DNA of 62,379 nucleotides from a virus, in IMG/VR virus record IMGVR_UViG_3300047444_000176, positions 1 to 62,379 of that record, one strand, 5' to 3'. Positions 3,536 through 62,379 of this stretch are shown here, one piece after another. A model generated the notes under the pieces. The model was not told the DNA's origin. It saw nothing but the letters and a program-made list of their open reading frames with translations, and searched no databases. Made by a program: the position numbers and the translations under genes. Each line of letters starts with the position of its first letter. The first letter of the stretch is position 1.

Positions 3536-3808
3536 ATGGCACACCCTGACGCGAGACGACGAGCATTCCGAGCAGTCGAGGAGACCTGTCCGATTGTCGA
3601 CCGGGAAGCCGAGCGTGTCGGTGACGCTCTCGACGAGATGGTCAAGCGTATCAAAAGCGATTGCACGGAAGCACTCCGCGAGGCCCTCATTGACGCATTC
3701 GATCAGGTCATCGAGCTTGAGGGTGAACGTGACGAGTTGCAGGAACGAGTCGAGGAGTTGGAAGGTGAACTGGAACAGGCACAACGCGCGCAACAGGAGG
3801 CGTCATGA
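3536..3808 (+). CDS. Coiled-coil protein (90 aa)
   Basis: ATG at 3536; an in-frame GTG at 3524 is the alternative. The C-terminal half is an uninterrupted charged helix with heptad-like spacing (VIELEGERDELQERVEELEG), a clear coiled coil. Its stop overlaps the ATG of the nucleotidyltransferase gene, so the two may be made in fixed ratio. No enzymatic motif; possibly an oligomerising partner, which is inference. Confidence 0.65.
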   Translation: MAHPDARRRAFRAVEETCPIVDREAERVGDALDEMVKRIKSDCTEALREALIDAFDQVIELEGERDELQERVEELEGELEQAQRAQQEAS

Positions 3809-4578
3809 AACTGTACCTTGTCGGTGGCACCGTCCGTGACCACCTGTTCGGGCTGCCGCAGGGAAACGATGTCGACTTCGCTGTCGAGGCCGAGTCGTTC
3901 GCTGAGATGGAGTCGTTGCTCGTCGCGCGTGGCCTGCGCGTCTGGCAGTCTCGTCCCGAGTTCGTCACAGTCCGAGGGCAGATGCCACTCTCGGCGCTCG
4001 GCTCCTTCGGTGGGCTTCTCGACATGCCGAAGGGCAAGCACGGCAAGGTCGGCTTCAGCCGTGACCACGTTGTCCTCGATGCAGACTTCACCCTCTGCCG
4101 TGCCGAGACTCAGTACAGCGACGGCCGGCACCCTGACTCGGTGACACCTGCCACGCTGGCCGTCGACCTCGCGCGCCGTGACTTCACGGTGAATGCAGTC
4201 GCCGTCAGCGAGGACGGGGATTGGGTCGACCCGTTCGAGGGCAGGCGTCACGCCGACTGCTGGACCCTCAAGACCGTGGGACGGCCGCTCGACAGGTTCG
4301 ACGAGGACCCGCTGCGCGTGCTCCGGGCCCTCCGCTTCAGCGTCAAGCACCACCTGAGACTTGCGGGCGATCTGGAGGCCGCCCTCAACAACGAGGCACT
4401 CGTCGACAAGCTCGGCACGCTCCCAGTCGAGCGCGTCCGTGAGGAGCTTGGCAAGGCGTTCGCACACGACTGGCTCGCGACCGCACAGGCACTCTCGACC
4501 GACTTCTCGACGGTCGCGCACGCTGTCCAGCAGCACTTCCCCAACCTGTGGCTAAAGGCCACGACAGAGGAGCGTTAG
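3805..4578 (+). CDS. tRNA nucleotidyltransferase / poly(A) polymerase head-domain protein (CCA-adding type)
   Basis: A 257-residue class II nucleotidyltransferase. The N-terminal signature LVGGTVRD (GG at residues 7-8) is followed by the metal-binding DVD at 22-24, then the RRDFTVNA motif near 124-131 and DEDPLRVLRALRF near 166-178, in the order seen in bacterial CCA-adding enzymes and poly(A) polymerases. Family enzymes add CCA to tRNA 3' ends or A-tails to RNA. It is much shorter than typical cellular enzymes of about 400 residues and lacks most of the C-terminal body. The phage carries tRNAs, one without encoded CCA, plus two RNA ligases, suggesting tRNA repair or maturation. CCA versus poly(A) activity cannot be decided here. 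Confidence 0.85.
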   Translation: MKLYLVGGTVRDHLFGLPQGNDVDFAVEAESFAEMESLLVARGLRVWQSRPEFVTVRGQMPLSALGSFGGLLDMPKGKHGKVGFSRDHVVLDADFTLCRAETQYSDGRHPDSVTPATLAVDLARRDFTVNAVAVSEDGDWVDPFEGRRHADCWTLKTVGRPLDRFDEDPLRVLRALRFSVKHHLRLAGDLEAALNNEALVDKLGTLPVERVREELGKAFAHDWLATAQALSTDFSTVAHAVQQHFPNLWLKATTEER

Positions 4579-9777: not shown

Positions 9778-10134
9778 ATGAACCATCCCGGCGATGACGC
9801 CCGTAGCGCGTGGAACCGTGGCCCTGAGATCATCGCAGCCGAGGAGCGCATCCTGCTGTACGCCGACGGGCTCCTCTCGTTCATGCGCTCGGAGAAGACA
9901 GACATCCTCAGCGAGTCGGCCGGGGCGATCGCCTTCTTCACGCACCGCAACGGGCAAGGCTTCGCGCCCAACCCGTTCGACAAGCCGATCGGCACCACGC
10001 AGAAGTACCTGCTGGAACGGATGGACCCAGACAACAACCGCCTGCTGGCGGAACTCCTGCGCGCAGCATGGGACCTCCGCTGCTGGCGCGAGCACTATCA
10101 CGAGATCACACCAGAGGAGAGAGACCGCCTATGA
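9778..10134 (+). CDS. Hypothetical protein (118 aa)
   Basis: First gene after the 9.74-kb promoter, with a strong AAGGAGG site seven bases before the ATG. Helical, soluble protein (MNHPGDDARSAWNRGPEIIA). Its stop overlaps the rtcB start, so it is co-translated with the RNA ligase. No family recognised. Confidence 0.65.
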   Translation: MNHPGDDARSAWNRGPEIIAAEERILLYADGLLSFMRSEKTDILSESAGAIAFFTHRNGQGFAPNPFDKPIGTTQKYLLERMDPDNNRLLAELLRAAWDLRCWREHYHEITPEERDRL

Positions 10135-11333
10135 AGTTCTACGGTGACATCCCAGTCTGGGGCGACCCGGTCGACGAGGGCGCTCTCGCGCAGGCTCAGG
10201 TCTGCCTCCGCACCGCCAAGCACGTCGCGATGATGGCCGACCACCATCTCGGCTACGCCGTTCCGATCGGTGGCGTCGTCTCCTACGAGGGAGCCATCTC
10301 GCCCTCGGGCGTCGGCTACGACATCGGCTGTGGCAACAAGGCCGTTCGGCTCGACATCCCGGCGCACTACGTGACCGAGAACCTGCCGGCCATCATGGAC
10401 GCCATCGTGTCGCAGATCAGCTTCGGCATGGGCCGCACGAACGACACGCCTGTCGACCATCCCATCCTCGACCGGAGCGAGGCCCGCTGGAACCACCCGG
10501 CCGTGCTCCCGCTCAAGCGGATGGCGGCCGACCAGCTTGGCACCGTCGGCGGCGGCAACCACTACGTCGACATCTTCATGGACGAACTCCAGCGCATCTG
10601 GGTCGGCGTCCACTTCGGCTCGCGTGGCCTCGGCCACAAGACGGCCACATGGTTCCTCAAGCAGGGTGGCGCGAAGGATGCCATCAATGCCGAGCCACTC
10701 GTGCTGCCTCTCGCGAGCGCCCTCGGTGCCGAGTACCTCCAGTGCATGACGCTGGCGGGCGAGTACGCCTACGCCGGCCGCGACTGGGTCTGCGCCAAGG
10801 TGGCCGAGATCATCGGTGCCGAGATCGTCGAGGAGGTCCACAACCACCACAACTTCGCGTGGCCCGAGGAGCACTTCGGTCAGAGCCTCATCGTCGTCCG
10901 CAAGGGTGCCACCCCGATGTGGCCCGGCCAGCGAGGGTTCATCGGAGGTTCGATGGGCGACCCGGCCTTCATCGTGCGTGGCTTCGACCCGTTCACCATG
11001 GCGGCCAAGCGCGACCAGCTTCTCTCGCTGTACTCGGCTCCCCACGGGGCCGGCCGCCTGATGTCGCGCACTGCGGCCAAGGGCAAGTTCGTGAAGGATG
11101 CGAACGGCAAGAAGCAGCGCATGCCCGGCCTCGTCCGGCATGATGCGTGGGCCAAGTGGATGGAGGATGCCGGCGTGGAGCTTCGCGGTGGCGATCTCGA
11201 CGAGGCTCCGCAGGCGTACAAGCGCATCGAGGAGGTGCTCGCGCACCACACCTACATGCAGATCGACCACTCACTCCGCCCGATCGGCGTTGCAATGGCC
11301 GGCCGGGACGTCGTAGACCCCTTCAAGGACTAG
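10131..11333 (+). CDS. rtcB: RtcB-type RNA-splicing ligase
   Basis: A 400-residue RtcB family protein starting at the ATG at 10131, overlapping the previous stop. It shows the metal/GMP site signatures in order: VGYDIGCG with D64 and C67, GGGNH (N143, H144), the H-x-G region, EVHNHHN, GGSMG, and HGAGRLMSR with H305, which matches the family's guanylylated histidine region. RtcB joins RNA ends with 2',3'-cyclic phosphate or 3'-phosphate to 5'-OH using GTP and Mn(II), repairing tRNAs cut by ribotoxins. A second ligase, a CCA-type enzyme and tRNAs in the same phage support tRNA repair. Full length for bacterial RtcB. Confidence 0.93.
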   Translation: MKFYGDIPVWGDPVDEGALAQAQVCLRTAKHVAMMADHHLGYAVPIGGVVSYEGAISPSGVGYDIGCGNKAVRLDIPAHYVTENLPAIMDAIVSQISFGMGRTNDTPVDHPILDRSEARWNHPAVLPLKRMAADQLGTVGGGNHYVDIFMDELQRIWVGVHFGSRGLGHKTATWFLKQGGAKDAINAEPLVLPLASALGAEYLQCMTLAGEYAYAGRDWVCAKVAEIIGAEIVEEVHNHHNFAWPEEHFGQSLIVVRKGATPMWPGQRGFIGGSMGDPAFIVRGFDPFTMAAKRDQLLSLYSAPHGAGRLMSRTAAKGKFVKDANGKKQRMPGLVRHDAWAKWMEDAGVELRGGDLDEAPQAYKRIEEVLAHHTYMQIDHSLRPIGVAMAGRDVVDPFKD

Positions 11334-11336
11334 ACC

Positions 11337-11489
11337 ATGAGCAGACGTTTCTTTCAGGGCCTGATCGTCGGCGGCGGCCTCATCGGGATCGCCTTCGGCC
11401 TGTGGATGCGCGACATCAACGTCGTGATGTCGTTCGCCCTTCCGGCCGTCTTCATCGGCTTCATGACCTGCATCCCTGACCTCGACTGA
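11337..11489 (+). CDS. Small membrane protein (50 aa)
   Basis: ATG four bases after the rtcB stop. Two hydrophobic stretches (LIVGGGLIGIAFGLW and SFALPAVFIGFM) indicate one or two membrane spans. The stop overlaps the next ATG. Function unknown. Confidence 0.55.
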   Translation: MSRRFFQGLIVGGGLIGIAFGLWMRDINVVMSFALPAVFIGFMTCIPDLD

Positions 11490-11689
11490 TGAAGAAGTTC
11501 AATGTACTGTTCAGCCAACGTAGCGCACGCCGGAACGGCCGCTGGTTCTGGAAGGCCCTCAACCTCTCGCTCACCCTCTCGGCCGGGCCCGTCTTCTCGG
11601 GCGGCATCCGGCTCATCTGGTGGGGCTGCGACTGGGCGATCGGTTGGTGGGCTCCGATGACATTGACCGAGGTGGACCCCAGTGCGTAA
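11489..11689 (+). CDS. Hypothetical membrane-associated protein (66 aa)
   Basis: Basic N-terminus (MKKFNVLFSQRSARRNGRWF) followed by a tryptophan-rich hydrophobic segment (IRLIWWGCDWAIGWW), probably membrane-associated. The end overlaps the ATPase gene start by eight bases. Role unknown. Confidence 0.55.
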   Translation: MKKFNVLFSQRSARRNGRWFWKALNLSLTLSAGPVFSGGIRLIWWGCDWAIGWWAPMTLTEVDPSA

Positions 11690-12791
11690 GAGCCATCCCG
11701 TTTTGGTCGGCATCGAGAACGTCCGGCCGTACAAGCTGACGACGAGCGAGTCGCTCTACACCGTCAAGCCGCCCCCGATGCAGATCGAGGGCTTCCTCGC
11801 GGCGGGCGGCATCATGGGGATCACCTCGTACCCCGGCGTCGGCAAGACGTGGGTCGCGATGGAGGTCGCCCGCACCATCTCCTCCGGTACATCCTTCCTC
11901 GGCCGCAAGACGATTCGAGGCGGCGTCCTCTTCGTGGGCTCGGACTCTTCGCTCGACGACTATGCCCGCCAGTGGACCCGCCTCAGCAAGTTCACCGGGC
12001 TCGACTACGAGCCTGTCCGCTTCCTCATCCAGTCGCCCTTCATGCTGGAGTCGATCGACGAGATCCGCAAGCTGATCGCGACGCACCGCTCGTTCAAGTG
12101 GGGCGAGGTCGAGATCACCTCGCGCGGCCCCGAGCAGCCGCACGGCTTCAGCGTCATCGTGTTCGACACGCTCTCGCGCCTCACGAGGGCGAACCAGAAC
12201 GACAACAACGAGATGGAGGACGTCTTCCGCAACATCCGCATCCTGTCGGAGGCGACCGGCGCGGCGATCATCCTGCTCCACCACAACTCGAAGAAGTCCG
12301 AGTTCAACGACGGTAGCGACTGGCGCGGTGCCATGTCGCAGATTGGCGCGCTCGACTCATGGGTCCAACTGGTCCCGCACAAGTCGAAGAAGCACCTCAT
12401 CGGCATCCAGTTCAAGAAGTTCCGTGGCATCACGCCGCCCGACTTCGCCTACACGATGAACGTCGACGAGGTCGATCAGGCCACGCTCGTGGCATCCGAG
12501 GAGCCAGTCACGCTGGCGCAGCGGCTGCTGAAGGACGGCGTGTCGGAGGCAGTCCTCGCGCACATCAAGGCGCACCCCGGCCTCCGTGCCGGCGAGATCC
12601 GCGACGCGCTCTACGAGAAGTTCAAGTCGGACTTCACGGAGGGCAAGTTCAACACCTGCGTCCGCAACCGGCTCACGGCCCTCGGGGCCGCCGAGCACAT
12701 CGAGAAGTACCTGTCGCAGTACGGGAAGGCCCTGTATCGTGAAGCAGTCAAACCGCAACCTAACAAGGCTGGCGCAGTCGCTGCCGGCTGA
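11682..12791 (+). CDS. RepA-like AAA/RecA-fold ATPase (probable replicative helicase or loader)
   Basis: A 369-residue P-loop protein with Walker A SYPGVGKTW (K55), a hydrophobic Walker B strand SVIVFDTLSRLTR, and the sensor-like LLHHNSKK typical of AAA_25/RepA-like hexameric ATPases. The C-terminal 90 residues look like a winged helix (PGLRAGEIRDALYEKF). Family members unwind or load at phage and plasmid origins. No DnaB-like helicase was seen elsewhere, so this is the best helicase candidate. Start is the GTG at 11682, slightly overlapping the upstream gene. Confidence 0.8.
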   Translation: MRKSHPVLVGIENVRPYKLTTSESLYTVKPPPMQIEGFLAAGGIMGITSYPGVGKTWVAMEVARTISSGTSFLGRKTIRGGVLFVGSDSSLDDYARQWTRLSKFTGLDYEPVRFLIQSPFMLESIDEIRKLIATHRSFKWGEVEITSRGPEQPHGFSVIVFDTLSRLTRANQNDNNEMEDVFRNIRILSEATGAAIILLHHNSKKSEFNDGSDWRGAMSQIGALDSWVQLVPHKSKKHLIGIQFKKFRGITPPDFAYTMNVDEVDQATLVASEEPVTLAQRLLKDGVSEAVLAHIKAHPGLRAGEIRDALYEKFKSDFTEGKFNTCVRNRLTALGAAEHIEKYLSQYGKALYREAVKPQPNKAGAVAAG

Positions 12792-13046: not shown

Positions 13047-13213
13047 AGATCACACTGAAAGAACCCGTCGAGATGAACGTCACCGCTCTCGTCCGCTACA
13101 AGGGACGCCCCGATGCCCTCTTCGCCTTCGAGATGAACGCTCACCAGTACATCACGATGCTCGTTGGCCGGGGCTATGCCCGTGAGAACTTCACGGTCGA
13201 GGTTCTCGCCTGA
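13043..13213 (+). CDS. Hypothetical protein (56 aa), GTG start
   Basis: The GTG at 13043 overlaps the preceding stop and lies after AGGAG. The product (VKITLKEPVEMNVTALVRYK) is a compact beta-alpha protein of unknown function. Coupled to a membrane-protein gene. Confidence 0.55.
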   Translation: MKITLKEPVEMNVTALVRYKGRPDALFAFEMNAHQYITMLVGRGYARENFTVEVLA

Positions 13214-13422
13214 TGAACTTCTTCAGCGTGCAGACCGAGTGGCACATCATCATGATCGCTGCCACGCTCCTCGGCATCATGGTCGAAGGCCTCTTCATCA
13301 AGGGCATCTCCGACTTCTTCCGCTGGCGGTCGTACGGCTCGGCGTGGATGGGCATCGGCCTGAACATCATCGTGGCCCTGATCGTGCTGGCGGGCATCAT
13401 CGAGATTCACCTCCACCCATGA
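13213..13422 (+). CDS. Small membrane protein (69 aa), paralogue of the 5053-5256 product
   Basis: Two membrane spans around a basic loop DFFRWRSYGSAW, the same layout and near-identical loop as the 67-residue product of 5053-5256. The rest has diverged, suggesting an old duplication with the loop under selection. It lies just before the NAD pathway genes. Function unknown. Confidence 0.65.
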   Translation: MNFFSVQTEWHIIMIAATLLGIMVEGLFIKGISDFFRWRSYGSAWMGIGLNIIVALIVLAGIIEIHLHP

Positions 13423-13661: not shown

Positions 13662-14563
13662 AGTCGAAGGGTCTCGCAGTCGCCGTCGTCCGCATGCAGG
13701 TCGACGAGCTTCACGCCGGCCACAAGTTCCTCATCGAGTCGATGCGCGCCCTCCACGAGAAGGTGCTCATCGTGCTCGGCGCTTCACGCGCGCTGCTGTC
13801 GGTCACCGACCCCTTGCCGGTGGCCGCTCGGCGCGACATGATCCAGACGGCCTACCCGGACGTGACCGTGACCGCCCTCGCTGACGAGGCGTCGGATGCC
13901 GAGTGGTCGAAGAACCTCGACTGGCTCATCGGCATGTTCCGCACGGCGACAGGGACGGGCATCGAGCCGCCAACGCTTTACGGGGCCCGCGACAGCTTCC
14001 TCCCGCACTACAAGGGCATGTTCCCGACCTGTACGCTCACGTCGCCCGAGTCCGAGTCGGGCACTGACGTGCGGAACGCGATCCAGATGGAGGACGACCC
14101 GGCCTTCCGGCGAGGGATGATCTTCGCTGCGAAGTCGCTCTACCCCATCTCGTTTCAGACTGTCGACGCGGCCATCATCCAGCAGGGCAAGGTCCTGCTC
14201 GGGCGCAAGAACAAGGACGGCGGCGGTTGGCGCTTCATCGGTGGCTTCGTCGATCCGACCGACGCCTCGCTCGAAGATGCCATCCTCCGCGAGGTCCGTG
14301 AGGAGACTGGCCTCGAAGTAGCGCAGCCGACCTACATCGGCTCGTACCGCATCGACGACCCGCGCTACCCGAAGACGGGCCGCGACCGCATCCTCACGGC
14401 CTTCTTCTCGATGCCTGTCTCGTTCGGCTTCGCTCTGGCGCGCGACGACGTCGACGCGGTCGCATGGTTCGACATGCAGAAGCTGCCTCCACTGGTCGAG
14501 AGCCACTGGCCTCTCGGCCTCGCGTTCCGCACCCACTTCTTTGGAGCCCTCCGTGCTCGCTAA
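13655..14563 (+). CDS. Bifunctional NMN adenylyltransferase-Nudix protein (NadM type)
   Basis: A 302-residue two-domain enzyme. The N-terminal nucleotidyltransferase domain has the HxGH motif (HAGH, H20 and H23) used to join NMN and ATP into NAD. The C-terminal Nudix domain carries the box ending REVREETGL (R212 onward) after GGFVDP; the acidic position upstream of the core is shifted from the strict Nudix spacing. Such fusions occur in bacteria and phages; the Nudix part may hydrolyse ADP-ribose or NAD derivatives. It lies directly before a nicotinamide phosphoribosyltransferase, giving a two-step nicotinamide-to-NAD route. Start is the ATG at 13655 rather than the shadow frame from 13493. 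Confidence 0.88.
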   Translation: MVKSKGLAVAVVRMQVDELHAGHKFLIESMRALHEKVLIVLGASRALLSVTDPLPVAARRDMIQTAYPDVTVTALADEASDAEWSKNLDWLIGMFRTATGTGIEPPTLYGARDSFLPHYKGMFPTCTLTSPESESGTDVRNAIQMEDDPAFRRGMIFAAKSLYPISFQTVDAAIIQQGKVLLGRKNKDGGGWRFIGGFVDPTDASLEDAILREVREETGLEVAQPTYIGSYRIDDPRYPKTGRDRILTAFFSMPVSFGFALARDDVDAVAWFDMQKLPPLVESHWPLGLAFRTHFFGALRAR

Positions 14564-15932
14564 CAACATCCTGCTCCTCACCGACTCGTACAAGGTCAGC
14601 CACTGGAAGCAGTACCCCAAGGGCACGACGCACGTCTTCAGCTACCTCGAAGCGCGCGACGGCGGCGAGTTCGGTCAGACGCTCTTCTTCGGCCTCCAGT
14701 ACATCATCAAGAAGTACCTCGAAGGGCAGGTCGTCACCCGCGAGAAGATCGAGGAGGCGGCCATCTTCTTCAGCCGGCACTTCGGCAACGAGACGCTCTT
14801 CAACCGCGCCGGGTGGGAGCACATCCTGCTCGCGCACGACGGGCATCTGCCGGTCATCGTCAAGGCCGTGCCCGAGGGCTCTGTCGTCCCGACGGGCAAT
14901 GTGCTCCTGACGATCGAGAATACGGACCCCGAGACCCCGTGGCTCGTGAACTACTTGGAGACCCTGCTCGTGCAGGTCTGGTACCCGACGACCGTCGCGA
15001 CCCAGTCCCGCTACATGAAGCAGGTCATCCGCGACTTCATGGAGACCACGGGCAGCAGCTTGGCCGGGCTCGACTTCAAGCTGCACGACTTCGGCTACCG
15101 TGGCTCGACGAGCGTCGAGTCGGCCGGCATCGGCGGCTGCGCGCACCTCGTGAACTTCAAGGGCACCGACACGATGGCGGCCCTTCAGGTCGCGCACGAG
15201 TACTACGCCGAGGCGATGGCCGGCTTCAGCATCCCGGCCGCCGAGCACTCGACGATCACTTCATGGGGTAACGAGCGTGCAGCCTACGAGAACATGCTCG
15301 ACCAGTATCCGACGGGTCTGGTCGCGGTCGTGTCGGACAGCTACGACATCTTCAACGCCGCAGACAAGATCTGGGGCGTGGAACTGCGCGACAAGGTACT
15401 CTTCCGCGACGGCACCGTTGTCATTCGCCCCGACAGTGGCGATCCTGTCACCGTCGTCATCAAGCTGCTCGACATCCTCGGGCAGCGGTTCGGCACCTCG
15501 CTGACGCCGACCGGCCACAAGCTCCTGAACCCGAAGGTCCGCGTCATCCAAGGCGACGGCATCGACCGCAACATGCTCCTCCGCATCCTGCGTAACATGA
15601 TGCAGGCCGGGTGGGCAGCCGACAACCTCGCGTTCGGCTCGGGCGGCGGCCTGCTCCAGAAGGTCAACCGCGACACGATCCGCTTCGCCATGAAGTGCAG
15701 CGCGATCAAGATCAACGGCCAGTGGAACGACGTGCAGAAGCACCCGTCCACCGACCCGTCGAAGAACTCGAAGGCCGGCCGGCTCATCCTCTGCAACGAT
15801 GGCACGGAGCAGTACACGACGGCGCGCGAGGGCGCTGGCACCAACCTCCTCGGCGTCGTGCTGCGGAACGGCTGGATGCCCCGGATGCAGACGCTGGCCG
15901 ACATCCGCTCGCGGGCGCAGGACAATCTGTGA
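14553..15932 (+). CDS. nadV: Nicotinamide phosphoribosyltransferase (NadV/Nampt family)
   Basis: A 459-residue protein closely resembling Nampt along its length: TDSYKVSHWKQYP at the N-terminus, KLHDFGYRGSTS with the catalytic-region histidine (H178), then VNFKGTDT. It makes NMN from nicotinamide and PRPP, feeding the adjacent adenylyltransferase. GTG start at 14553, seven bases after GGAG; an in-frame TTG at 14541 is less likely. It overlaps the end of the upstream gene by 11 bases, so the pair is one unit. In phages this pair is known as an NAD-reconstitution pathway that counters NAD-depleting defences. Confidence 0.93.
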   Translation: MLANNILLLTDSYKVSHWKQYPKGTTHVFSYLEARDGGEFGQTLFFGLQYIIKKYLEGQVVTREKIEEAAIFFSRHFGNETLFNRAGWEHILLAHDGHLPVIVKAVPEGSVVPTGNVLLTIENTDPETPWLVNYLETLLVQVWYPTTVATQSRYMKQVIRDFMETTGSSLAGLDFKLHDFGYRGSTSVESAGIGGCAHLVNFKGTDTMAALQVAHEYYAEAMAGFSIPAAEHSTITSWGNERAAYENMLDQYPTGLVAVVSDSYDIFNAADKIWGVELRDKVLFRDGTVVIRPDSGDPVTVVIKLLDILGQRFGTSLTPTGHKLLNPKVRVIQGDGIDRNMLLRILRNMMQAGWAADNLAFGSGGGLLQKVNRDTIRFAMKCSAIKINGQWNDVQKHPSTDPSKNSKAGRLILCNDGTEQYTTAREGAGTNLLGVVLRNGWMPRMQTLADIRSRAQDNL

Positions 15933-16989: not shown

Positions 16990-17249
16990 TGAACTATCCC
17001 ACAGTCCTCAGCCCGTGGTTCGTGGTGCAGAAGACCGCCGGGCGCAACGAGATCGGTACGCGCGATCCGATCATCACGCACATCGTCTACTTCTGCTCAC
17101 AGGAAGTCTCGCCTGACGAGTGGACGACTGACAAGAAGAAGGCAATGCTCATGATGTCCATCCACTCGGCGGCACAGATCTCGAAGGCAACAGGCGGTGA
17201 GATCCGGGCCCTCGTCACCCAAGAAGACTCAGCGGAGTTCGGTCGATGA
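16989..17249 (+). CDS. Hypothetical protein (86 aa)
   Basis: ATG at 16989 coupled to the upstream stop. Soluble alpha/beta protein (MNYPTVLSPWFVVQKTAGRN). No family recognised. Its stop overlaps the GroES-like gene. Confidence 0.55.
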   Translation: MNYPTVLSPWFVVQKTAGRNEIGTRDPIITHIVYFCSQEVSPDEWTTDKKKAMLMMSIHSAAQISKATGGEIRALVTQEDSAEFGR

Positions 17250-17524
17250 TCCAGCCACTCGGTAACAGGGTTCTCATCTCGCGCATGCCGGAGCCGAAGC
17301 CGGTCACGTCGCTCATCATCCAGCCCGACTCGGTGCTCGACAAGCCGTCGCAGTTCGGCATCGTGCTCGCCATCGGGACGAAGGTGCGCGAGTCGCTCGC
17401 GGTCGGCGACACAGTCGTCCTGCGCGACTTCAGCGGTGCGCCCGTTTCGGCCGACATGGCCGAGGGCATCGACAACGCCTTCATGATCGTCGAAGACGAC
17501 ATCCTCGGAGTCCTCAATGCGTAA
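17246..17524 (+). CDS. GroES-like co-chaperonin (92 aa)
   Basis: Length and fold pattern match GroES/Cpn10: it begins IQPLGNRVLISRMPEPK, with the usual PLGDRVLV-type strand, a mobile-loop-like region near residues 18-32, the strand FGIVLAIGTKV and a C-terminal strand DDILGVLNA. Co-chaperonins cap GroEL, and phage versions (T4 gp31 and others) adapt host GroEL for capsid folding. No GroEL partner was seen in the window, so it presumably works with the host chaperonin. Coupled to neighbours by short overlaps. Confidence 0.82.
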   Translation: MIQPLGNRVLISRMPEPKPVTSLIIQPDSVLDKPSQFGIVLAIGTKVRESLAVGDTVVLRDFSGAPVSADMAEGIDNAFMIVEDDILGVLNA

Positions 17525-50512: not shown

Positions 50513-50781
50513 TAGCCGGCCGCCCCCGGCATCGCAGGCGTCGGGCTCGACGTGGGCGTCGGGGCCTTGGAACGCATGTCTTTGCCGTTCGCGAACGGAG
50601 CCTGCACGGCCGACGGGTTGTCCCCATCGTTCGTCTTCATGCTCACGTCCGGCATGTCGTTGGCCTTCTCCTTCGCCGCGACATTCACGCCGCTCGGCAG
50701 GGGAAGGTTGTCCACGCCATCCACGGGAGCCGGCATGTTGACCGACGTACCGCTGATGGTGGGGTTCTTGCGCTGTGCCAT
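50512..50781 (-). CDS. RNP-signature micro-protein 6 (89 aa)
   Basis: MAQRKNPTISGTSVNMPAPV, then Pro/Ser/Thr-rich flexible sequence (SKAPTPTSSPTPAMPGAAG). First of the cluster after the capsid terminator. RKNP at residues 4-7. Confidence 0.65.
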   Translation of the reverse strand: MAQRKNPTISGTSVNMPAPVDGVDNLPLPSGVNVAAKEKANDMPDVSMKTNDGDNPSAVQAPFANGKDMRSKAPTPTSSPTPAMPGAAG

Positions 50782-50794
50782 GTTGTACCTCGAA

Positions 50795-50836
50795 AGCAGA
50801 AAGGGGCGGCGAAAGGTCTCGCCCTCCACCGCCCCC
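50795..50836 (-). terminator. Probable terminator downstream of the major capsid gene
   Basis: On the minus strand GGGGCGG (50835-50829) pairs with CCGCCCC (50809-50803), with a nested GGCGA/TCGCC, followed by TTTCTGC and more T. A terminator after the capsid gene is common in podoviruses; the T-tract is imperfect, so read-through into the micro-protein genes is likely. Confidence 0.55.
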
Positions 50837-57321: not shown

Positions 57322-57471
57322 CTAACCTCTGCGCCGGCTCTCGCGGTTCCAGAGCCACAGGCGGATGCGGGCCACGAGGCGTTCGCCCCAGTGACCACCT
57401 TTGACGACTCCGATCTTGCGGGTGATGTTCCCGCGTGTCACGGAGATGCTGATGCGTGCTCTGGTCTTCAT
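57322..57471 (-). CDS. Small basic protein (49 aa)
   Basis: The ATG at 57471 overlaps the terminase stop by four bases. Sequence MKTRARISISVTRGNITRKI, strongly Arg-rich (NRESRRRG end). Not reported by simple length filters but well coupled. Unknown role. Confidence 0.5.
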   Translation of the reverse strand: MKTRARISISVTRGNITRKIGVVKGGHWGERLVARIRLWLWNRESRRRG

Positions 57472-59414
57472 ACGGGTTCCCTCGGTGGAATCCACCCGTC
57501 CTCCTCGAAGCCACGGACGCCGTCGTCGAGGTAACCGGAAGCCCGGAGTTCATCGCGCTCGGCCATCATGGTGAGGAGTTCATCGTTCGTCATGGGCTTG
57601 CCCATGTTCTTCAGGTCGTCGTCCCACGGGCGACGGACCGTTGTTCCCTCGTCCTGCACGAGGCCGGGGTCCGTGGTAGGCGGTCGCCACAGTTTCGGGG
57701 CGAAGCCGTCAGCCGCTGCATCGGCAAGGTCGTCGTGTGAGACCGTGTCAACCTTGAGGATCTGGTTGACCATCTTCCGCACGATCGGCGTCACGATGAA
57801 GTGAGGGCACTGCACGTAGACGAGCTTGTTTGTCTTCGGGTCGAGCACGGGAGGCGGGCACTTGCACTCACCCCTGTTGAGGAGGATGCGCGCGTAGCCG
57901 CCCTGCCAGTGACCGGCCGCCGTACGGATGCGGGACTTCTTGTCCTTGGTACGGTTGAACTGCATGAACTGGTCATCGCCGAAGTTGAAGCCGGCGGTGC
58001 GAAGGAGGCCGAGGATACGGTTCTTGTAGACGCCCTCTTTGCCACCCGGCTCGGTCTCGTCCGTGATCGCGCGAATGAAGATGCCGCGACGGCGGAGGTT
58101 GACGAGGACGGCAATCAGTTCCTTGTTGAAGTCCTCTTCGCGCCACTCGTTCGAGGCGCGGAGGAGTTCGGTGTCGAGGTAGAGCACGCCGTTGTTACGG
58201 GCGTCCTTCAGCCAGACCACGATTACAGAGTCGTCACCGCGCCCGATGTTCTCCTTGTTCTTGAACGCCGTGTCGATGTGGACGGTTGCCCACTCGACCG
58301 TCACGTCCCAGATGAAGTCCGGGTAGGAGACGTAGAGCCACGGGATCTGCCCCTCGACGAGCGGAGCGTGCTCCGATGCGCCGGGGTTGTTCTGCTGCTG
58401 GCCTGCGAACTCCTCGGCGTTGATGCGCTTGCGTCGCGCGATCTCGGCCACGGTCCACATCTTCGGGTGCGTCGGCAGGCCGGTGGTCTCGTCCTCGGTC
58501 TGCCAGAAGAAGACGTGCCAGATGCCTTGGCCGAAGGGCACCTTGTCGAACATCGACATGTGCGGGCAGGGCATGCCGGTCCACGAGGCGACGCCGTCCT
58601 CGTGCATGTGGTAGCCCGCGACGTCGTCGTCGAGGTACCGGGTGCATGTGAGGACACGGAGTCCGTTACGGTGGAGCGCGTTGGCCGACGACATGAAGGC
58701 TGACTTCTGCCCTCGCAGGTAGGCCGAGCGGTCCTTCTTCAGCTTCTCCTGTTCGAGCGGGTCATCCCAGAAGGACTGGCGCGGGTGGTAGCCCGTCGCG
58801 CCGATGCCGGCGGATGAGGCGTCGAACGAGGGCTCGCCGATGTTGCGCGCGCGCCGGTAGGAGTGCTTGATGAATGACTTGGTGCGCTCCTGCGCGCCAG
58901 TCACCCAGTCGCCGTAGAGCCATACGAACCACGAATCCGGGTCGTGGTTCTTCCCCCCACCGCAGACTGCAAGGATGGAACCGAGAATGTCACCGGACAG
59001 TTCGTCGGTCGCAGACTGGATGAGGGTCGTCATGTCGGGGTCGTTCAGGTGCGACCACAACGACCCGGCTTTGGTCGATGAGACCGTCTTCCCGAAGCCA
59101 CGCGGCAGGAGGGAGATCAGGTTGTACTGCTCGGGGATGCCAGCGAGGGCATGAGCCTTCCACTGGAGCAGGTGAGTCTGGAGCCATGTGGTGTACGGGA
59201 TGTGGAGCGGCTCGTACAGCCACTGGGGCTCTGCGGGATGCGACGCGAGGTAGTGCTCCGCGCCCCATGCGTGGCGGAGGAAGTGCCACAGGGAGTGCGG
59301 GTGCGTCGACCGCATGGGGTTTACATGCCACGCTTCCGGCGCGCAGATTGCCCGCCAGAGGACCCTCTCGGCTTCCATGTCCCAGTCTTGACGAAGCGCA
59401 GAAACTTGAGCCAC
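57468..59414 (-). CDS. terL: Terminase large subunit
   Basis: 648 residues from the GTG at 59414, which follows GGGAGG at good spacing; an internal ATG at 59315 lacks a site. Walker A SLLPRGFGKT lies near residues 101-110. The RNase H-like nuclease part shows HIDTAFKNKENIGRGDDSVI, AITDETEPGGKEGVY and VDTVSHDDLADAAADGF, the usual D-rich terminase motifs. It packages DNA into the prohead through the portal. The start overlaps the upstream gene by 94 bases. Confidence 0.9.
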   Translation of the reverse strand: MAQVSALRQDWDMEAERVLWRAICAPEAWHVNPMRSTHPHSLWHFLRHAWGAEHYLASHPAEPQWLYEPLHIPYTTWLQTHLLQWKAHALAGIPEQYNLISLLPRGFGKTVSSTKAGSLWSHLNDPDMTTLIQSATDELSGDILGSILAVCGGGKNHDPDSWFVWLYGDWVTGAQERTKSFIKHSYRRARNIGEPSFDASSAGIGATGYHPRQSFWDDPLEQEKLKKDRSAYLRGQKSAFMSSANALHRNGLRVLTCTRYLDDDVAGYHMHEDGVASWTGMPCPHMSMFDKVPFGQGIWHVFFWQTEDETTGLPTHPKMWTVAEIARRKRINAEEFAGQQQNNPGASEHAPLVEGQIPWLYVSYPDFIWDVTVEWATVHIDTAFKNKENIGRGDDSVIVVWLKDARNNGVLYLDTELLRASNEWREEDFNKELIAVLVNLRRRGIFIRAITDETEPGGKEGVYKNRILGLLRTAGFNFGDDQFMQFNRTKDKKSRIRTAAGHWQGGYARILLNRGECKCPPPVLDPKTNKLVYVQCPHFIVTPIVRKMVNQILKVDTVSHDDLADAAADGFAPKLWRPPTTDPGLVQDEGTTVRRPWDDDLKNMGKPMTNDELLTMMAERDELRASGYLDDGVRGFEEDGWIPPREPV

Positions 59415-61169: not shown

Positions 61170-61348
61170 CGGGGAGGCCACGACATGCGGCTCGGGATGT
61201 CCATCGGGACACCGTCCACGATGTGGCGTGCTCGGCGCGCTGTGTACTCGCGCGCGCTGATGAACTCGATGTCAGGCCCCTGCGGTGGGGCGTCCTTCAG
61301 TTGCTGGAAGAACCGGTCCAGCGTCTCCGGTGTGAGCTTGGCTTCCAT
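61166..61348 (-). CDS. Hypothetical protein (60 aa)
   Basis: MEAKLTPETLDRFFQQLKDA, ending PSRMSWPPR. It overlaps the terminase-small-subunit candidate by 77 bases in another frame and the next gene by four. Supported by coupling at its 3' end. Confidence 0.5.
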   Translation of the reverse strand: MEAKLTPETLDRFFQQLKDAPPQGPDIEFISAREYTARRARHIVDGVPMDIPSRMSWPPR

Positions 61349-61925
61349 CGGCTTCCTCCCTCGCTTCGAGGCGGGATGAGAGAGCCCTGACGACGTCGGC
61401 GGCCGGGTAGGAGGCGAAGAGCACCTCGACTACGAAGTCGACATCGGCGATCGACGAGGTCAGGTCCTTGTAGCGGTCGAAGGCCATGGCGCGCGTGAGG
61501 GGCGGGCCGGGGCCGAGGTCACGGATCTTGACGGCATCGCGGAGCTTGCCCCACTGGACGGAGGCGCTCATGCGCGTGTCGGCGTGGAGCTTGGGGTCGA
61601 AAGCGAAGCGGATGCACTGCTTGAGCATGCGCTTCTGGACTTCGTCGTCGTCGAGGTCTTCGAGGAGCGACATGTCAGCGAGCGCCATCATGGCGTCATG
61701 GTCGAGCATCCCCGAGGGCGGGGCCGGCTCGGCCGGCGTGGCGTCGGGCAGGACGGAGGCCGCCTTGCGCGAGGGCGCGAGCTTGCCCTCCTCGACGAGC
61801 CCCTTGCGCGCGATGGCGATGAGGGCGACCGAACAACCAGTGCCGGCTGCCTGCTGCTCCTTCGACTCGTCGGGGTGCGCGAGGATGTAGAGCCGGGCCT
61901 TCTGGAGCTTCGTCTGAGGGGCCAC
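61272..61925 (-). CDS. Putative terminase small subunit (217 aa)
   Basis: GTG at 61925, five bases after GGAG; first gene of the minus arm. The N-terminus has a helix-turn-helix-like region (ESKEQQAAGTGCSVALIAIA). The middle is acidic and helical, and the C-terminus is variable. Size and position, first in the packaging operon, fit TerS, which recognises DNA for packaging. Family not proved. Confidence 0.55.
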   Translation of the reverse strand: MAPQTKLQKARLYILAHPDESKEQQAAGTGCSVALIAIARKGLVEEGKLAPSRKAASVLPDATPAEPAPPSGMLDHDAMMALADMSLLEDLDDDEVQKRMLKQCIRFAFDPKLHADTRMSASVQWGKLRDAVKIRDLGPGPPLTRAMAFDRYKDLTSSIADVDFVVEVLFASYPAADVVRALSSRLEAREEADGSQAHTGDAGPVLPATEGRPTAGA

Positions 61926-62031
61926 AGGAACTCCTTGCAAAGGTTTGACGTTAGATACGTCCGAGTATATGGGCGGGACAGGGGCTGCCCACAATGTCGT
62001 AACATTCGGGCGGGTCACTGGGGGCCCTTGC

Positions 62032-62047
62032 TGGCACGCATCTTGCT
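62032..62047 (+). promoter_or_regulatory. sigma54-type -24/-12 site, plus strand, exact consensus
   Basis: TGGCACG, four bases, TTGCT: all defined positions match the published consensus (TGGCAC-R-N4-TTGC-W), with GG and GC 12 bases apart. It would drive rightward transcription. Confidence 0.6.
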
Positions 62048-62049
62048 TG

Positions 62050-62065
62050 GGCAAGGACCATGCCA
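62050..62065 (-). promoter_or_regulatory. sigma54-type site, minus strand, two mismatches
   Basis: On the minus strand TGGCATG, four bases, TTGCC. It pairs as an inverted repeat with the plus-strand site 62032-62047. Correct GG-GC spacing. Confidence 0.5.
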
Positions 62066-62071
62066 CGCTGC

Positions 62072-62087
62072 TGGCACGCTCTATGCG
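62072..62087 (+). promoter_or_regulatory. sigma54-type site, plus strand, weaker -12
   Basis: TGGCACG, four bases, ATGCG. The -24 half is perfect and GC spacing kept; T12 and the last base differ from the consensus. Confidence 0.45.
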
Positions 62088-62090
62088 TAG

Positions 62091-62106
62091 AGCAAGGCTC
62101 GTGCCA
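62091..62106 (-). promoter_or_regulatory. sigma54-type site, minus strand, exact consensus
   Basis: Minus strand TGGCACG, four bases, TTGCT: matches at all defined positions. It would read toward the packaging genes starting at 61925. It forms an inverted pair with 62072-62087. Confidence 0.6.
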
Positions 62107-62112
62107 CAGGTC

Positions 62113-62131
62113 GGTGGGTAACTCTAGTGTA
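62113..62131 (-). promoter_or_regulatory. Promoter with shared phage element, copy 3 (minus)
   Basis: Minus strand extended -10 TGGTACACT (62134-62126), then AGAGTTACCCACC (62125-62113), the same block as at 9748 and 22318. No good -35 at 16-17 bases was found. It reads toward the packaging operon through the sigma54-like cluster. Confidence 0.65.
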
Positions 62132-62379
62132 CCACGTTCCACCCTGCAACGCCCCCGCATGCGCCACGAAGCGTGTTATCACACGGAATGAGCCCGGCGG
62201 GCGGGGCGCGGGATGCCGGTGTGTCCATCCTGACACGGCCAGTTTCTAGCCGCTCCTCCCTCGATGGCCCTGTCCGGGCAGAAGTGCCCTAACCCCATGG
62301 CGCACAAGCACTTAGACCATTCGCTCCCAGACGCTCTAGGATGCCCCACAATCGCGTCGGCCCCCCTCCGAGGATGGCC

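Follow-up and report, generated by a model that had tools for sequence, protein, structure and literature searches.

The right end of a 62,379-base virus record from IMG/VR carries four sites of the sigma54 −24/−12 type, and these probably act as host-RpoN promoters arranged in two facing bidirectional pairs that drive both arms of an SU10-like phage. The existence and conservation of the sites are certain. Judged from their sequences, recognition by RpoN is very likely, it is likely that they serve the phage as its main promoters with activation by an enhancer-binding protein of the host, and bidirectional firing, together with its physiological meaning, is plausible.

Genome layout and the four sites

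The window (i.e., the whole stretch of DNA analysed, 62,379 bases) consists of two arms, with genes read rightward from position 1 to approximately 31 kb and leftward from approximately 62 to 32 kb. The leftward arm encodes the large terminase subunit (TerL) and a portal protein, major capsid protein (MCP), and adaptor of the SU10 type, and the rightward arm encodes a family A DNA polymerase, RtcB, nicotinamide phosphoribosyltransferase (NAMPT), lysozyme, and others. The rightward genes include those for a tRNA nucleotidyltransferase (3805–4578), RtcB (10131–11333), NAMPT (14553–15932), and a GroES-like co-chaperonin (17246–17524); in some bacteria, the host RtcB is itself under the control of a sigma54 activator, RtcR. 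Neither an integrase nor an RNA polymerase was found among the Pfam/PHROG families listed (25 of 31 and 25 of 55), so the phage is likely to be lytic and dependent on the host polymerase.

No GenBank phage matched the window at the DNA level, and the only GenBank phage matched by the TerL protein was Erwinia phage Pecta, with 23.5% identity; the SU10-like clade of the window has no isolate among GenBank phages. A host search with the MCP in GTDB genomes returned only a 32% match in a Rhodobacter MAG, which is uninformative on the host, and we assume that the host has RpoN. The ends of two relatives overlap, exactly over 127 bases in G021 and near-exactly over approximately 197 bases in G002, indicating that the genome map is circular (approximately 63–64.5 kb) and that a piece of the control region is missing from the window. 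The features discussed below are as follows.

57468–59414, minus strand: TerL, the query used to find relatives
61272–61925, minus strand: first gene of the leftward packaging arm (217 amino acids, GTG start, AAGGAG)
61926–62379, no strand: noncoding control region, its right end cut by the end of the record
62032–62047, plus strand: sigma54-type site 1, TGGCACGCATCTTGCT (TGGCACG-CATC-TTGCT, perfect consensus; predicted start at about 62058, rightward)
62050–62065, minus strand: sigma54-type site 2, TGGCATGGTCCTTGCC (TGGCATG-GTCC-TTGCC; predicted start at about 62039, leftward to the packaging arm)
62072–62087, plus strand: sigma54-type site 3, TGGCACGCTCTATGCG (TGGCACG-CTCT-ATGCG, weaker; predicted start at 62098, rightward)
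62091–62106, minus strand: sigma54-type site 4, TGGCACGAGCCTTGCT (TGGCACG-AGCC-TTGCT, perfect; predicted start at about 62080, leftward)
62032–62065, no strand: facing pair A (plus and minus sites starting 18 apart; 34-bp imperfect palindrome with a strong and a weaker half)
62072–62106, no strand: facing pair B (plus and minus sites starting 19 apart; a strong and a weaker half)
62221–62236, no strand: dyad GTGTC-CATCCT-GACAC, a candidate enhancer (UAS), centred approximately 150 bp upstream of the leftward start at 62080

The initial annotation of this DNA had described four sites of sigma54 geometry at 62032–62106, and its description held throughout: the spacing of GG and GC is fixed in all four; sites 1 and 4 match TGGCAC-R-N4-TTGC-W perfectly, and sites 2 and 3 have two mismatches each; the strands alternate as plus, minus, plus, minus, with the starts of same-strand copies 40 and 41 bases apart; and the sites are noncoding, upstream of the packaging arm. 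The outermost gene of this leftward arm begins at 61925; its product had no family match and, by inference, occupies the position of the small terminase.

In a weight-matrix scan of the whole window, which the initial annotation had proposed, the four sites ranked 1, 2, 3, and 6. The best score was 18.5 in the window versus 12.7 in the reversed sequence, with a matrix approximated from the published consensus; the matrix is not decisive for our conclusions, because IUPAC searches agree with it. Among 300 dinucleotide shuffles, no 80-bp stretch contained more than two above-threshold sites, versus four in the window, and sites scoring ≥18 numbered 15 in all 300 shuffles versus two in the real window. 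The initial annotation had not noticed the motif elsewhere by eye; the exact consensus occurred only at sites 1 and 4 in the record, with no control matches.

Conservation among TerL relatives

A TerL search identified 47 loci (47–100% identity). Strong sites, often 3–10 of them, were located 2.4–5 kb upstream of TerL in 25 of the 28 loci with at least approximately 2.5 kb of upstream sequence; the exceptions were L018, L033, and L037, which had no strong site in that region. Strong TGGCAY-R-N4-TTGC-W sites recur in the single divergent control region of a clade of uncultured SU10-like phages (TerL identities as low as 50%; GC contents of 39–65%), with variation in the four spacer bases, and in the near-complete relatives (G002, G004, G009, G012, G014, and G021; 57–66 kb), all sites scoring ≥16.5 fell within that region. 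One of them, G014, has a TerL identity of approximately 52% and a GC content of 39% versus 64.5% in the window, which suggests that a change of host took place while the control logic was preserved.

In the table of relatives' sites, the N4 spacer was free and GG and GC were fixed, a result that is partly circular because the set was selected with the matrix. Aligned neighbours, which were not so selected, differed at site 4 in the spacer alone (AGCC or GGCC) and, elsewhere, had CAC or CAT and G or A at R, so that substitutions among relatives were confined to the spacer or to the degenerate Y and R positions; conserved sites with a free spacer are the pattern of purifying selection. Whole sites were also turned over among neighbours: L010–L012 lack pair A, and their counterpart of site 3 is the full consensus TGGCAYGCTCCTTGCT. 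The initial annotation had regarded relatives that conserve the dyad while losing the −12 GC or the GG–GC spacing as evidence against sigma54. The comparison of relatives, also proposed there, revealed the reverse, because half-sites keep their exact spacing, whereas pairing is lost or rearranged and N4 varies, and this supports the sigma54 reading.

G002 aligns across both ends of the window and supplies the missing rightward side. Its control region extends approximately 1.4 kb to the first rightward gene and contains an additional plus-strand site, TGGCACACGGATTGCA, at G002:31574. Approximately 700 noncoding nucleotides (G002:31590–32309; L051 11590–12309) separate the last plus-strand sigma54 site from the first rightward gene and include a hairpin-like element, GCCGGTCCGAAACCGGC; an Rfam search of the G002 control region gave no match.

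Facing pairs and arrays across IMG/VR

Among the facing pairs within 70 bp in the TerL family, 10 had starts 18–21 apart and six had other distances. Across all of IMG/VR, the exact facing pair at offset 18 was present in at least 119 stretches, and no facing pair with an inner spacer of 3 or 5 was found there; the exact pair was likewise absent from 398 Pseudomonadota genomes. The 80 loci that were read spanned GC contents of 0.33–0.68, with contigs of up to 223 kb, and arrays were frequent in them, with same-strand periods of approximately 42 or 54. Most array-bearing contigs were loosely linked through shared proteins. The SU10 MCP, tried as a marker of these contigs, was rejected because its family was found in only 1 of 50, indicating that the feature is wider than the SU10-like clade.

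The facing pairs of L089–L168 were de-duplicated by their flanks. At offset 18, one TGGCAC half was combined with one TGGCAT half in 57 of 74 pairs. The halves differed in 58 pairs versus 37.3 expected, a number that may include a scan bias at this offset, and at the unseeded offsets (17 and 19–22), the TGGCAC/TGGCAT pairing occurred in 15 of 21 pairs versus 9.9 expected. The combination of a strong and a weak half may set the direction of a facing pair.

Placement of sites relative to genes

In G024, 9 of 25 sites preceded a gene start on their own strand by 23–105 bp, mostly 23–48 bp (tested range, 12–120 bp), versus none with the strands flipped and 2.8 expected at random. A gene-by-gene layout was evident at G024:13000–32000 (L228), where a plus-strand site lies 23–48 bp before each gene. 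For most rightward genes of G024, a minus-strand site also lies approximately 150 bp beyond the plus-strand site, and AGTCCGGATAGG recurs between the two (e.g., at 11408–11548, 12132–12299, 13171–13341, and 13730–13899), and this element may be an enhancer. Across all array loci, no enrichment at gene starts was detected (22 on the same strand, 18 flipped, and 25.6 at random). Arrays were mostly situated in long noncoding regions (median gap, 913 bp) and were over-represented at divergent gene boundaries (21 of 41 versus 24 of 145 in the background; p ~2e-5), with a divergent-to-convergent ratio of 21:8 (p = 0.024), which is a modest preference after de-duplication. From these placements, promoter function is well supported for the sites of G024 and plausible for those elsewhere.

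Sites in cultivated phages

One of the IMG/VR loci with a facing pair (L146) corresponds to vB_PaeM_C2-10_Ab02, a lytic Pakpunavirus of P. aeruginosa. In Ab1, a relative of Ab02, all of the strongest sites were confined to the terminal repeats (137–1064, with a second copy at the right end) and to the intergenic region 79749–79934, which contains a facing pair at 79901/79919; the reversed control had none. Some of the terminal-repeat sites of the Pakpunaviruses are antisense, inside an annotated ORF; terminal repeats of 1165 bp have been described in phage Adele (PMC12846349). The exact pattern occurred nine times in Ab1, six times in PaP1, and twice each in PAK_P3 and KPP10, and was absent from T4, KVP40, ICP1, phiKZ, LUZ7, LUZ19, LUZ24, PB1, YuA, SU10, phiEco32, Mx8, and Pecta. 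In PAK_P3 (KC862299), back-to-back sites lie 149 bp apart at 50797/50946, a spacing also found in KPP10, and three direct repeats resembling AAGGTACTCGACAGATTTTCAC lie beside them (approximately 50558–50661). The sigma54 sites go unmentioned in the PAK_P3 transcriptome paper (PMC4933390).

Supply of RpoN and of an activator

The RpoN DNA-binding domain (PF04552) was detected in none of 24 records, and the activator domain Sigma54_activat (PF00158) in none of 24 and none of 50, sets that comprise many fragments and several near-complete genomes; the host must therefore supply both proteins to the phages searched. A phage-encoded sigma factor of the phiEco32 type was likewise not among the 25 of 31 and 25 of 55 Pfam/PHROG families listed.

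The best candidate for a binding site of the host activator is GTGTC-N6-GACAC, the most widely shared dyad of the control regions, which was found in 8 of 16 family regions (the next dyad, in three) and is absent from the other half. It occurred eight times in 12.6 kb of control region versus four times in 258 kb elsewhere and was enriched 90–160 bp from the sites. GTGTC is a motif that we take to be that of the activator PilR, a candidate link to the phage dyad. A predicted FlrA/FleQ-type box, yGTCA-N6-TGACr, also has the GTCA/TGAC dyad in common with that of the phage, but its spacer is 6, versus 4 in the phage dyad (GTGTCA-N4-TGACAC) (PMC4641369), and because of this difference, we do not claim identity with that activator.

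Proposed mechanism and alternative explanations

Taken together, these sequences lead us to infer RpoN binding, transcription starts, an enhancer role for the dyad, and bidirectional firing. The sites would be recognised by host RNA polymerase with RpoN, and a host enhancer-binding protein, perhaps bound at the GTGTC dyad approximately 115–150 bp away, would open the complexes. Transcription would start 12 bases past each GC (at 62058 and 62098 rightward and at 62039 and 62080 leftward), so that the facing pairs would launch it outward into both arms of this lytic-looking phage, with rightward RNA entering the replication arm and leftward RNA entering the packaging arm behind leaders of approximately 114 and 155 nt. 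Because each predicted start lies inside the partner site, two holoenzymes could not occupy a facing pair together, and each pair would fire in one direction at a time.

It is rather unlikely that the sites bind the host RpoN holoenzyme but serve mainly as something other than promoters, namely as decoys, as roadblocks or silencers in which closed complexes stay stably bound, or as elements of a replication origin or of a packaging or terminal region. The arrays in long noncoding regions, often with no gene start nearby, and the position of Pakpunavirus sites in terminal repeats would suit such roles, whereas the same-strand placement near genes in G024 and the enrichment at divergent boundaries argue against them; for a decoy, the observed rules of orientation and spacing would also be unneeded.

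The initial annotation had offered repressor operators as an alternative, and the wider form of this idea, in which the dyads serve as operators for some regulator other than RpoN (a repressor or activator from either phage or host) and the half-site equals the sigma54 consensus by coincidence, appears improbable. In its favour, facing pairs are palindromic and prefer an offset of 18, and arrays have periods of 42 and 54. However, unpaired half-sites are common and conserved, which weakens it, no inner spacer altered by a single base was seen, and the sites agree with the published sigma54 consensus at each defined position, down to the Y, R, and W degeneracies; a repressor-type family was also missing from the 25 of 31 and 25 of 55 Pfam/PHROG families listed.

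That the palindromes form RNA or single-stranded DNA hairpins (a terminator, pac site, or recombination site) is very improbable: the minus strand of 62020–62120 folds better than shuffles (z = −2.9), but the plus strand folds like them (z = −0.4), half-sites also occur singly, and no terminator was found. This reading was rejected because complementarity between the N4 spacers is lacking (in 72 unique facing pairs, 86 matches versus 99.8 expected). Although single-mismatch matches to the motif do arise by chance, the prospect of a chance cluster is negligible, being refuted by the conservation in relatives and contradicted by the matrix ranks, shuffles, control counts, and survey of known phages.

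The host-RpoN promoter reading bears on how infection is controlled. If RpoN drives these phages, infection would hinge on host enhancer-binding regulators (of nitrogen, motility, pili, or membrane stress) and be tied to the physiological state of the host cell. More broadly, several unrelated lytic phage groups may independently have brought their main control regions under the host sigma54 switch through phage-specific facing sites 18 bases apart and arrays of these, with firing that is bidirectional but mutually exclusive and with infection gated by stress or nutrient cues from the host, a proposal that we advance tentatively and rate at slightly below an even chance. In P. aeruginosa, rpoN and pilS mutants show generalist phage resistance, for which no mechanism has been assigned (PMC6188897). 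Some phages may depend directly on sigma54, a candidate cause of that resistance that, if true, would explain rpoN-based phage resistance directly. Because the sites occur in the well-studied, readily grown Pakpunaviruses, the question is testable now.

Comparison with known systems

The remark in the initial annotation that sigma54 control is rarely described for lytic phages agrees with the open-access literature, in which we found no report of phage sigma54 promoters; the nearest cases are a putative sigma54-like protein of Pectobacterium phage Q19 (PMC7693777) and the rpoN-linked phage resistance of P. aeruginosa (PMC6188897). The phage sites have the GG-N10-GC core and TGGCACR-N4-TTGCW consensus in common with the bacterial sigma54 promoters of NtrC-, NifA-, and FleQ-type regulons, as well as the noncoding location and a candidate dyad at enhancer distance, and the Desulfovibrio sigma54 consensus, tGGcacg/tTGCt, matches theirs (PMC4641369). 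Unlike bacterial sigma54 promoters, they form facing pairs and alternating arrays, and no phage activator was found with them.

The Kuravirus-type phages phiEco32, 7-11, and SU10 have head genes related to those of the window (SU10 MCP, portal, and adaptor). phiEco32 and 7-11 use a sigma factor that they encode themselves and that has dedicated promoters (PMC8948821), and SU10 and phiEco32, unlike the phage of the window, lack the sigma54 pattern. Conversely, the Pakpunaviruses (Ab1, Ab02, and PaP1) and Nankokuviruses (PAK_P3 and KPP10) are myoviruses unrelated to this phage, but their long noncoding regions contain these same sites, as in the window.
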